Shown: positions 7,943-22,786 of the stretch, piece by piece | Position numbering within the stretch: position 1 is the stretch's first letter | Layout: each line of letters starts with the position of its first letter | Assembly (NCBI GenBank): GCA_018608545.1 | Contig: JABAZI010000032.1 | Location: 3,372 to 45,820, forward strand | Length of the DNA stretch: 42,449 nucleotides | Source of the DNA: Polaribacter sp. | GTDB lineage: Bacteria > Bacteroidota > Bacteroidia > Flavobacteriales > Flavobacteriaceae | Reading direction: 5' to 3' | Made by a program: the position numbers and the translations under genes | The notes under the pieces: generated by a model | What the model was told of the DNA's origin: nothing | Seen by the model: only the letters and a program-made list of their open reading frames with translations | The model's database searches: none

Positions 7943-9370
7943 TTAAAATGTCAATTTTTTAGTAAGGTCGTCAACATACTTTCGAAACTGCTTATCAGTT
8001 TCTGTTAAGTTATCAACAGTTTTACAAGCGTGTAATACCGTAGCATGATCTCTTTGTCCAATTTGATTACCAATACTCGCCAGGGAGGTTTTAGTCAATC
8101 TTTTTGCAAAGAACATTGCTAATTGTCTTGCCTGAACAATATGGCGTTTACGGGTTTTAGATTGAAGCGTTGCTACATCCATATCAAAATATTTAGAAAC
8201 TTCTTTTTGTATGTAATCTATAGAAACTTCTTTTTTGGTGTTTTTTACAAATTTATCTACGATCTGTTTTGCCAATTCGAGAGAAAACTCTCTTCTATTG
8301 AAAGAAGCTTGAGCAATCATAGAGATGATAACCCCCTCTAATTCTCGTACGTTTGATTTAATATTCTTAGCAATGTATTCTACTATATCGTCTGGCATTT
8401 GCACGCCATCTCTAAATAATTTATTTTGAAGGATAGAAATCCTAGTTTCGAAATCTGGAGCTTGTAATTCAGCAGATAGCCCCCATTTAAAACGAGACAA
8501 TAAACGCTGTTCAATATCTTGCATATCTACAGGTGCCTTGTCTGATGTTAATATCACCTGTTTTCCATTTTGGTGTAGGTGGTTAAAAATATGAAAGAAA
8601 ACATCCTGTGTTCCAGCTTTACCGGAAAGAAATTGAACATCATCAATGACTAATACATCAATCATTTGATAAAAATGAATAAAATCGTTTCTTGTATTTG
8701 ATTTTACTGAATCAATGAACTGTTGTGTGAATTTTTCAGAAGAAATGTACAACACAGTTTTGTCAGGGTATTTATCTTTAATATCAACGCCTATAGCATG
8801 AGATAAGTGTGTTTTACCCAAGCCAACACCTCCATAGATTAATAAGGGATTAAAAGAGGTTCCTCCTGGCTTATTAGCTACTGCCATTCCAGCAGATCGT
8901 GCCAATCTATTTGAATCTCCTTCAACAAAATTATCAAAATTATAATTTGGGTTTAATTGTGATTCTATTTTTACTTTTTGTAATCCTGGAATTACAAAAG
9001 GATTTCTAAGTTCTCTTTTGTTAGATTCTAAAGGAATCGTAACTTTTTGTGATTTAAGAGGGTCTCTGTTTGAACTTGGAATTTTTACAATTTGAGGTCT
9101 ATTACTACTGTAATTATTCTCCATTTTAACATCATAAATCAATTTGGCATCAGTTCCCAATTGTTTTACGAGTGCAACCCGTAATAATTTAATATAATGT
9201 TCTTCTAACCATTCATAAAAAAACTTACTAGGCACTTGAATCGTTAATGCTTCTCCCGAAATTTTCACTGGCTTTATAGGCTCAAACCAAGTTTTATAAG
9301 CCTGTGGTTTTATGTTGTCTTTTATAAAAATAAGACATTCATTCCAAACTGAGTCAGCAGTTAAAGTCAT
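7943..9370 (-). CDS. dnaA: Chromosomal replication initiator protein DnaA
   Basis: 475 aa; NPLLIYGGVGLGKTHLSHAIG (Walker A), DVLVIDDVQFLSGK (Walker B), C-terminal GQRDHATVLHACKTV DnaA signature. Confidence 0.98.
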   Translation of the reverse strand: MTLTADSVWNECLIFIKDNIKPQAYKTWFEPIKPVKISGEALTIQVPSKFFYEWLEEHYIKLLRVALVKQLGTDAKLIYDVKMENNYSSNRPQIVKIPSSNRDPLKSQKVTIPLESNKRELRNPFVIPGLQKVKIESQLNPNYNFDNFVEGDSNRLARSAGMAVANKPGGTSFNPLLIYGGVGLGKTHLSHAIGVDIKDKYPDKTVLYISSEKFTQQFIDSVKSNTRNDFIHFYQMIDVLVIDDVQFLSGKAGTQDVFFHIFNHLHQNGKQVILTSDKAPVDMQDIEQRLLSRFKWGLSAELQAPDFETRISILQNKLFRDGVQMPDDIVEYIAKNIKSNVRELEGVIISMIAQASFNRREFSLELAKQIVDKFVKNTKKEVSIDYIQKEVSKYFDMDVATLQSKTRKRHIVQARQLAMFFAKRLTKTSLASIGNQIGQRDHATVLHACKTVDNLTETDKQFRKYVDDLTKKLTF

Positions 9371-19372: not shown

Positions 19373-19442
19373 CAACCGCTAAATTAACCTCTGACGAAAA
19401 AATCGTGAATGTTGTTTTACAAAATCAATTAAATCAAAAGAT

Positions 19443-19793
19443 ATGGAATCTTTAGTGAAATTTGTTCAAGACGAATTTGTAGCAAGAAAAGAATTTGCAG
19501 AATTTGCTGCCGGTGATACTATCACTGTTTATTACGAAATTAAAGAAGGAGAGAAAGTACGTACTCAGTTTTTTAGAGGAGTCGTTATCCAAAGAAGAGG
19601 AGTTGCTGCTTCAGAAACATTTACAATCAGAAAAATGTCTGGTACTGTGGGTGTAGAAAGAATTTTCCCAGTTAACTTACCTTCTATCCAAAAAATTGAA
19701 GTAAACAAAAGAGGAAAAGTACGTAGAGCTCGTATATTCTACTTTAGAGGTCTTACTGGTAAAAAAGCTAGAATTACTGAAAAAAGAAGATAA
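19443..19793 (+). CDS. rplS: 50S ribosomal protein L19
   Basis: 116 aa; FAAGDTITVYYEIKEGEKVRTQFFRGVVIQRRG...RIFYFRGLTGKKARI. Confidence 0.97.
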   Translation: MESLVKFVQDEFVARKEFAEFAAGDTITVYYEIKEGEKVRTQFFRGVVIQRRGVAASETFTIRKMSGTVGVERIFPVNLPSIQKIEVNKRGKVRRARIFYFRGLTGKKARITEKRR

Positions 19794-19813
19794 TATCTCT
19801 TATACAGATTATA

Positions 19814-19849
19814 AAAAAAAGCGTTGTAAATTTTTACAACGCTTTTTTT
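19814..19849 (+). terminator. Intrinsic terminator of rplS
   Basis: GCGTTGTAAA-tt-TTTACAACGC flanked by A and T runs. Confidence 0.92.
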
Positions 19850-19909
19850 AATTAACAAATGTTCATAACCATAGTTGATATTGTGTTGATTAACAAATAG
19901 TTATTTTTT

Positions 19910-19939
19910 TTGCACATGTAAAAAACATTTTTATATTTG
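19910..19939 (+). promoter_or_regulatory. Bacteroidota-type promoter for the rplS-icd intergenic RNA
   Basis: TTG (19910-19912), 19-nt spacer, TATATTTG (19932-19939). Confidence 0.6.
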
Positions 19940-19944
19940 AAAAG

Positions 19945-20380
19945 AATTACATATCTAACATACAAAGAAGCGTGAAAACAAATCTTTAGAGAGATGAGTA
20001 ATCCAATAAAGTAACGTTCTTTATTTATTGTTTTTTAAGAAGTCTATATATCCAATTTCTCTGTAAAAAGTGATAAGAAGATATTCTTTAAAAAAAATAA
20101 TGTTATGTAAATAACTAATTATTATTTTTTAAAATGTTTTGGTTGCATAGCCATACAAAGATGAATTAATCGACAATTTGAAACATTAAAAGATTAAAAA
20201 AAGCGTAAGCTTCTATAATTTATAGTGTTTCAAAAACTGAAATAGTGAAAAGTAATTTTTTACACGTAAAAAATACGAGATTCATTCTTGTTTGAATTTG
20301 TAGCAATACAAATCAGTACAAATTAACTACTTCAAAGAAGCCATATCACTGCAAGAAATTGTTTGATGTGGCTTTTTATT
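19945..20380 (+). ncRNA. Candidate structured non-coding RNA, unknown class
   Basis: No ORF reported here; bounded by a promoter and an intrinsic terminator; many local hairpins including GNRA-loop stems (GTTAT-GTAA-ATAAC, AAGC-GTAA-GCTT, ATTTGTA-GCAA-TACAAAT). Confidence 0.45.
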
Positions 20381-20384
20381 TTTA
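20338..20384 (+). terminator. Intrinsic terminator downstream of the intergenic RNA
   Basis: AAGCCATATCA - 15-nt loop - TGATGTGGCTT followed by TTTATTTTT. Confidence 0.75.
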
Positions 20385-20487
20385 AAGAATCTTATATTCT
20401 CCTAAATATTCTACTTTTATTATTCAATAGCCAAAAAACCAACTTAATTAATACTAATTTATCAATAGTATTTTCACTTTAAATTCA

Positions 20488-20495
20488 TAGATTTG
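20488..20495 (+). promoter_or_regulatory. -7 element TAGATTTG for icd
   Basis: Matches TAnnTTTG ~65 nt upstream of ATG. Confidence 0.45.
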
Positions 20496-20536
20496 TTCCG
20501 CTTTTTTTTCGAAAAGCATTTTTGTAAAAAACATAA

Positions 20537-22786
<2,250 letters not shown>

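Follow-up and report, generated by a model that had tools for sequence, protein, structure and literature searches.

A predicted large structured non-coding RNA with a boxA-like element between rplS and icd in Flavobacteriaceae

Results

The rplS-icd gap contains the signals of a separate transcription unit

The window, i.e., the whole stretch of 42,449 nucleotides from Polaribacter sp. that was analyzed, carries rplS and icd separated by a gap of 767 bp (19794-20560) without a credible open reading frame. Both points had been made in a preliminary description of this DNA, which proposed a new structured RNA for the gap; that proposal is now supported by a conserved locus, covariation, better folding than shuffled sequences and the lack of an Rfam match. 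The genes and signals of the region are as follows, with the basis of assignment given in brackets.

7943-9370, minus strand: dnaA, 10.5 kb from the RNA gene
19385-19414: L19-Flavobacteria ribosomal leader RF03130, 29 nt, upstream of rplS (the only Rfam match found, 44.6 bits)
19443-19793, plus strand: rplS (L19), usual upstream neighbour, with its own terminator at about 19818-19850
19852-19892, plus strand: conserved upstream element TTAACAAATGTTCATAACCATAGTTGATATTGTGTTGAT, between about -92 and -50 relative to the predicted start
19910-19939, plus strand: Bacteroidota-type promoter TTG-N19-TATATTTG (TTG at 19910-19912, TATATTTG at 19932-19939)
about 19944, plus strand: predicted RNA start (placed from the promoter)
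19944-20380, plus strand: non-coding structured RNA with a predicted length of about 437 nt (conservation, covariation, absence of coding signal)
20007-20023, plus strand: weak hairpin UAAAG/CUUUA with the boxA-like element on its 3' side (alignment A5)
20014-20030, plus strand: candidate boxA-like antiterminator ACGUUCUUUA, extended ACGUUCUUUAUUUAUUG (sequence conservation)
20338-20384, plus strand: intrinsic terminator AAGCCAUAUC...GAUGUGGCUU followed by a U-run (family-wide conservation)
20488-20495: icd promoter box TAGATTTG, 3' of the RNA terminator (sequence)
20561-22786, plus strand: icd, monomeric isocitrate dehydrogenase, usual downstream neighbour (Pfam PF03971)

The promoter, described earlier as TTG-19 nt-TATATTTG, as well as the rplS terminator and the strong terminator behind the RNA, were all found to be present. 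The promoter box, for which a TAnnTTTG consensus has been published (PMC9723704), was detected with at most one mismatch in 90 of 101 homologues, and the terminator in 110 of the 141 rplS downstream regions inspected. With regard to coding potential, the longest open reading frames measured 31.4 amino acids compared to 30.9 in shuffled sequences, the longest one in the window being 16 amino acids.

Upstream of the promoter lies an element of about 45 bp with three direct GTTNAT repeats, at spacings of 13 and 11 bp, plus a fourth copy in inverted orientation. Across the family, this element is near-invariant in the form TTAACAAWTGTTAATAA-n5-GTTNATA-n4-TGTTGAT. Allowing up to two mismatches, TTAACAAWTGTTAATAA was present in 79 of 101 RNA-bearing gaps, whereas none of the 18 gaps lacking the RNA and 2 of 2,020 shuffled sequences contained it. 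The perfect three-repeat pattern occurred at this locus only, once per genome, in nine of the 12 genomes searched, and the element accompanies the RNA also where rplS is not adjacent. It bears some likeness to DnaA boxes TTATNNACA. Most likely, this element would be bound by a dedicated regulator.

Covariation reveals a conserved fold

Two alignments were employed in order to study the fold. For A2, R1, a covariance model built for the 3' domain, served to align 53 sequences. Compensatory changes were seen in 42 of 50 pairs; double-change cells numbered 377, compared to 101 after shuffling and 38-62 with slid partners. Since A2 leans towards its model, A5 was built from sequence alone with MAFFT, without fitting to structure, from 30 full-length homologues. 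RNAalifold predicted 91 pairs for A5, of which 54 displayed compensatory changes, and 95.9% of the cells were paired; here, 292 double-change cells were counted versus 79 after shuffling and 31-43 with slid partners. When the terminator was removed, comparison with 40 dinucleotide shuffles gave a folding-energy z-score of -3.1 for the window RNA; 100 homologues averaged -3.5, each being below zero. The RNA has a conserved secondary structure, therefore, with compensatory changes far above those of shuffled and slid controls. Conservation and covariation in related genomes, and folding beyond that of dinucleotide shuffles, on which the earlier proposal had been made to depend, were thus both found. 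The helices of the window RNA are the following.

20027-20038, plus strand: P0 long-range helix, 5' strand AUUGUUUUUUAA (helix 3 of A5)
20166-20177, plus strand: P0 long-range helix, 3' strand UUAAUCGACAAU (helix 3 of A5)
20180-20187, plus strand: PA helix, 5' strand GAAACAUU (helix 1 of A2)
20201-20212, plus strand: inner hairpin AAGC-GUAA-GCUU within PA (AAGYA/UGCUU with other loops in Polaribacter-type relatives)
20224-20231, plus strand: PA helix, 3' strand AGUGUUUC (helix 1 of A2)
20239-20245, plus strand: PB domain-closing helix, 5' strand GAAAUAG (helix 2 of A2)
20256-20273, plus strand: hairpin h1 UUUUUUAC/GUAAAAAA (helix 3 of A2, compensatory changes in 5/5 pairs)
20275-20291, plus strand: hairpin h2 ACGAG/CUUGU (helix 4 of A2, compensatory changes in 7/7 pairs)
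20296-20313, plus strand: hairpin h3 AUUUGUA-GCAA-UACAAAU with a GNRA loop (helix 5 of A2, compensatory changes in 5/5 pairs)
20327-20333, plus strand: PB domain-closing helix, 3' strand CUACUUC, with one mismatch in the window (helix 2 of A2)

From 5' to 3', the architecture consists of a 5' hairpin (in A5), the boxA-like element in a weak hairpin, P0, PA, the PB domain and the terminator. P0 is formed by AUUGUUUUUUGA paired with UCAAGAAAAACAAU and encloses a central multibranch domain that contains hairpins capped by GNRA loops; in the window, where P0, PA, PB, h1-h3 and the terminator can be recognized, this domain is short and variable. The best supported helices are PA, with compensatory changes in 8/8 pairs, and PB, with 7/7 pairs and 98% of the cells paired (both in A2). 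For P0, A5 showed 11 pairs with 97.5% of the cells paired and compensatory changes in four, and the duplex amounts to -4.0 kcal/mol in the window. Because PA was misplaced in some sequences, the window included, when P0 was sought automatically across all clades, P0 is based on A5, on a register set by eye elsewhere and on the window duplex.

P0 and PB, as well as the boxA-like and upstream elements, had been absent from the preliminary description. The stems listed there all exist as sequences, and the region folds beyond chance, but several of them are not conserved. A long-range pairing of AATGTTT (20133) with AAACATT (20181) had been suggested to close a multibranch domain; it is not conserved, and AAACATT instead pairs with AGTGTTT (20224-20230) to form PA. 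The stem TTTCA/TGAAA (20228-20242) competes with both PA and PB, CTATAA-t-TTATAG has a loop of a single nucleotide and cannot form as drawn, and AAGAA/TTCTT (20075) as well as GTTAT/ATAAC (20102) fall within the variable region. From three GNRA loops proposed, the GCAA loop of h3 (20303-20306) is conserved, with GNRA in 29 of 53 sequences of A2 and 24 of 30 of A5, but the other two are not. Further GNRA hairpins were found in relatives, in 28 of 30 and 18 of 30 homologues.

A boxA-like element near the 5' end of the transcript

About 70 nt after the predicted start, ACGUUCUUUA (20014-20023) constitutes the best conserved transcribed segment apart from the terminator. The exact 10-mer was present in 68 of 109 homologues but only in 2 of 2,200 shuffled sequences; within one mismatch, the numbers were 87 of 109 and 24 of 2,200, respectively, and conservation of the core GUUCUU reached 98-100%. 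A looser search for boxA patterns with two mismatches was swamped by chance matches in these AT-rich genomes and was discarded. The segment provides a GYUCUUUAA-like core close to the start of a transcript that is not translated. In 16S leaders and internal transcribed spacers of the same genus, AACGTTCATTGAAAATATTG and CACGTTCATTGACATATTGG were found, and AACGTTCTTTGACATTTTGG in another family of the Flavobacteriales. The rRNA boxA of Flavobacteriaceae is GUUCAUUGA and not GUUCUUUA, two positions being different, and the extended motif of the RNA has ACGUUC.UU.A.AUAUUG in common with the rRNA boxA of the same genus. Several homologues, for example L014, L134 and L155, fit exactly the gamma-proteobacterial boxA consensus GYTCTTTAANA (PMC5725501); a boxA of CRISPR arrays, GTTCTTTAAAA, has also been reported (PMC7862264).

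We consider ACGUUCUUUA likely to be a boxA-type antitermination site at which Nus factors would act; likely rather than proven, since the rRNA boxA of the family differs at two positions and the segment can pair in the weak hairpin. As this hairpin is possible in most homologues, the conservation might be partly structural. A less probable, still noteworthy reading, perhaps one chance in a few, takes ACGUUCUUUA not as an antiterminator but as a hairpin motif with a structural or protein-binding role in the RNA, and the UAAAG/CUUUA pairing would agree with it: 96% of the A5 cells are paired, A-to-G drift of the 5' strand preserving the pairs while the 3' strand remains constant. However, GUUCUUU is retained in other lineages where the flanks do not pair (e.g., L070, L143 and L066), the extended motif fits the rRNA boxA context of the same genus, and the exact consensus matches mentioned above argue for a boxA as well.

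Distribution of the RNA family

A DNA search in 59 related genomes recovered the locus in about 20 genomes of the same genus, with 19997-20040 and 20173-20385 as the two best conserved blocks. When loci were collected via icd, rplS-icd synteny with an ORF-free gap of about 550-1,000 nt was observed in most Flavobacteriaceae loci, and R1 matched the coding strand directly 3' of rplS in most of them. R2, a broader covariance model, matched in 180 of the 301 Flavobacteriaceae genomes sampled and in 149 of 237 genera, nearly always in single copy. The 180 genomes are a lower bound, since the boxA-like element is retained in five of 12 R2-negative family genomes (genus g148 excluded) in which the rplS region was inspected (L169, L170, L172, L173 and L176), together with the conserved terminator in four of these five. 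No RNA was encountered in the six g148 genomes examined and in two close relatives (G403 and G528), and in seven of these eight the rplS-icd gap is 170-290 bp. As the RNA is absent from the large genus g148 and some close relatives, it is not generally essential. RNA and upstream element are lost together as a unit.

Outside of Flavobacteriaceae, weak R2 matches were obtained for G388 and G516 only (E ~1e-3) and were not accepted; the matches in G516 and G454 lie at loci without rplS, icd or boxA and were rejected. Five loci with a Bacteroidota-like monomeric icd (L088, L089, L095, L103 and L104) carry titles of metagenome-assembled genomes from Myxococcales, Verrucomicrobia, Neisseria or Deltaproteobacteria, and the source bins are probably mislabelled or contaminated. 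In G198, R2 matched twice: L131 follows rplS and includes boxA, and L132 precedes icd and lacks boxA; the locus may have been split or duplicated.

The neighbourhood of the RNA varies. At L139 and L160, where rplS is absent within about 2 kb, as well as at L142 and L154, upstream element, boxA and terminator remain together, and in some genomes the RNA sits beside rplS only or icd only with its fold unchanged. Gaps of 1.4-2.1 kb that hold an additional open frame of about 120-250 codons occur in several genera (L041, L042, L044, L045, L047, L049, L050, L052, L063 and L076); the RNA terminator, where located, precedes this frame, so that the order is RNA, extra ORF and icd. The Lacinutrix locus L047 also contains a Flavo-1 RNA (RF01705) at 9127-9210.

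Discussion

Judged by comparative sequence analysis, upstream element, promoter, boxA-like site, structured RNA and terminator make up a conserved, portable cassette which encodes no protein. With its own predicted promoter and terminator, compensatory structure and no conserved reading frame, the unit looks like an independent gene. The neighbouring genes fail to explain the RNA, since it is kept beside rplS only or icd only and since extra ORFs may precede icd. Nevertheless, the usual position between rplS and icd could point to an element that controls icd in cis, as leader or attenuator, or to a 3' element of rplS. This is very unlikely, because separate signals serve the three units (a terminator for rplS, a promoter for the RNA and, past the RNA terminator, a TAGATTTG box for icd), and because an additional gene separates RNA and icd in several genomes, the identical fold occurs elsewhere with a single one of the two neighbours, and icd also follows clean gaps of about 170-290 bp that lack the RNA. 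As the RNA is not always directly upstream of icd, a regulatory leader of that gene is largely refuted. Similarly, a chromosomal replication origin might be suspected, given the AT-rich DNA, the unique DnaA-box-like repeats TGTTNATAA and the proximity of dnaA; this is even less credible. In G020, a relative with a complete chromosome, strand-corrected third-position GC skew (raw GC skew was uninformative) places the origin at about 0.85 Mb and the terminus at about 2.1 Mb, whereas RNA and dnaA lie at about 0-32 kb, mid-replichore, which excludes oriC at the RNA locus and separates dnaA from the origin in G020. Furthermore, the upstream element can be lost. An intact cassette beside differing neighbours and the joint loss of RNA and upstream element therefore speak against both an icd leader and oriC. 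The DNA-binding signature of DnaA in the window is GQRDHATV, in place of GGRDHTTV as known from other bacteria.

DNA with 20-28% GC folds easily, and several of the stems listed initially are of that kind, yet covariation, conservation, position and folding z-scores refute chance hairpins of AT-rich intergenic DNA, and practically no weight is left for them. A trans-acting base-pairing sRNA, in which the structure would mainly protect or present seed loops for pairing with mRNAs, seems unlikely, but clearly less so than the preceding readings: the promoter looks regulated, and such a mode of action was proposed for the unrelated flavobacterial Rfp18 of F. psychrophilum (PMC9723704). However, the size of the RNA, more than 15 covarying helices and the GNRA loops suggest a folded scaffold, and apart from boxA no long invariant unpaired stretch was recognized.

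Our preferred explanation, which we regard as probable, is that the locus is an independent gene for a structured non-coding RNA of about 440 nt, predicted to be expressed by boxA/Nus-dependent transcription and to function in trans, most likely as a structural or regulatory RNA made by a Nus-modified polymerase. A regulator binding to the phased GTTNAT repeats would drive the promoter, and the boxA-like GUUCUUUA, transcribed after about 70 nt, would recruit NusB/S10 and the Nus complex. This complex might render the polymerase resistant to Rho on a long untranslated RNA and might aid RNA folding, as in the case of rRNA. The finished RNA, with P0, PA, the PB multibranch domain and GNRA-capped hairpins, could then act in trans as a ribonucleoprotein with a structural or regulatory role. 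More tentatively, and with somewhat less than even chances in our opinion, it may represent a new class of structural RNAs, large, rRNA-like and Nus-transcribed, which would form a ribonucleoprotein of their own or even act as ribozymes, being near-standard in Flavobacteriaceae and under their own regulator acting through the GTTNAT element.

RNA classes this large and widespread that are confined to one major, largely marine family are rare. A candidate boxA antitermination site outside of rRNA operons and CRISPR arrays offers a testable mechanism of expression; the boxA survey of 2017 by its own statement left non-coding RNAs aside (PMC5725501). The locus-specific upstream element provides a route to the regulator, and natural presence/absence pairs among close relatives make the function accessible to genetics.

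In agreement with the proposal of a new RNA in the preliminary description, the region 19900-20400 gave no match to Rfam 15 families at gathering thresholds, and at E ≤ 10 it gave sub-threshold, chance-like matches only; the families tested include RNase P, tmRNA, SRP, 6S-Flavo, Flavo-1, OLE, GOLLD and ROOL. The homologous gap of 14 related loci was likewise without a match at gathering threshold. RNase P RNA is located elsewhere in the same genome and in three relatives, and tmRNA elsewhere in three relatives; in the draft genome of the strain itself tmRNA was not found. A literature search yielded no description of the RNA, the supplementary list of F. psychrophilum sRNAs being outside its coverage.

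When compared to known systems, the boxA elements of rRNA operons and CRISPR arrays are alike in having a GUUCUUUA core early in a long transcript that is not translated, whereas the present candidate usually lies in a weak hairpin and neither rRNA nor CRISPR follows downstream. The L19-Flavobacteria leader (RF03130) also neighbours rplS, but is situated upstream of it and is unrelated to the downstream RNA. The Rfp sRNAs of Flavobacterium psychrophilum are also independent intergenic transcripts, some of them structured and genus-conserved (PMC9723704), but independent flavobacterial transcripts are short, with a median of 176 bp (PMC9723704), and the RNA is missing from the examined genomes of g148, which is possibly Flavobacterium. 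6S-Flavo RNA (RF01685) is likewise independent, structured and flavobacterial, but it comprises about 108 model positions and does not match at the RNA locus; it was located elsewhere in the same genome with 78 bits, just under the cut-off. OLE, GOLLD and ROOL are large orphan structured bacterial RNAs. Like the flavobacterial RNA, they are several hundred nucleotides long, multibranched, furnished with GNRA loops and encoded in their own transcription units, and their function was obscure upon discovery; they differ from it in host clade and architecture, and none of their Rfam families matched here. As a family, the RNA is new and has no Rfam entry, and as a type it joins the large orphan structured RNAs, for which there are precedents.
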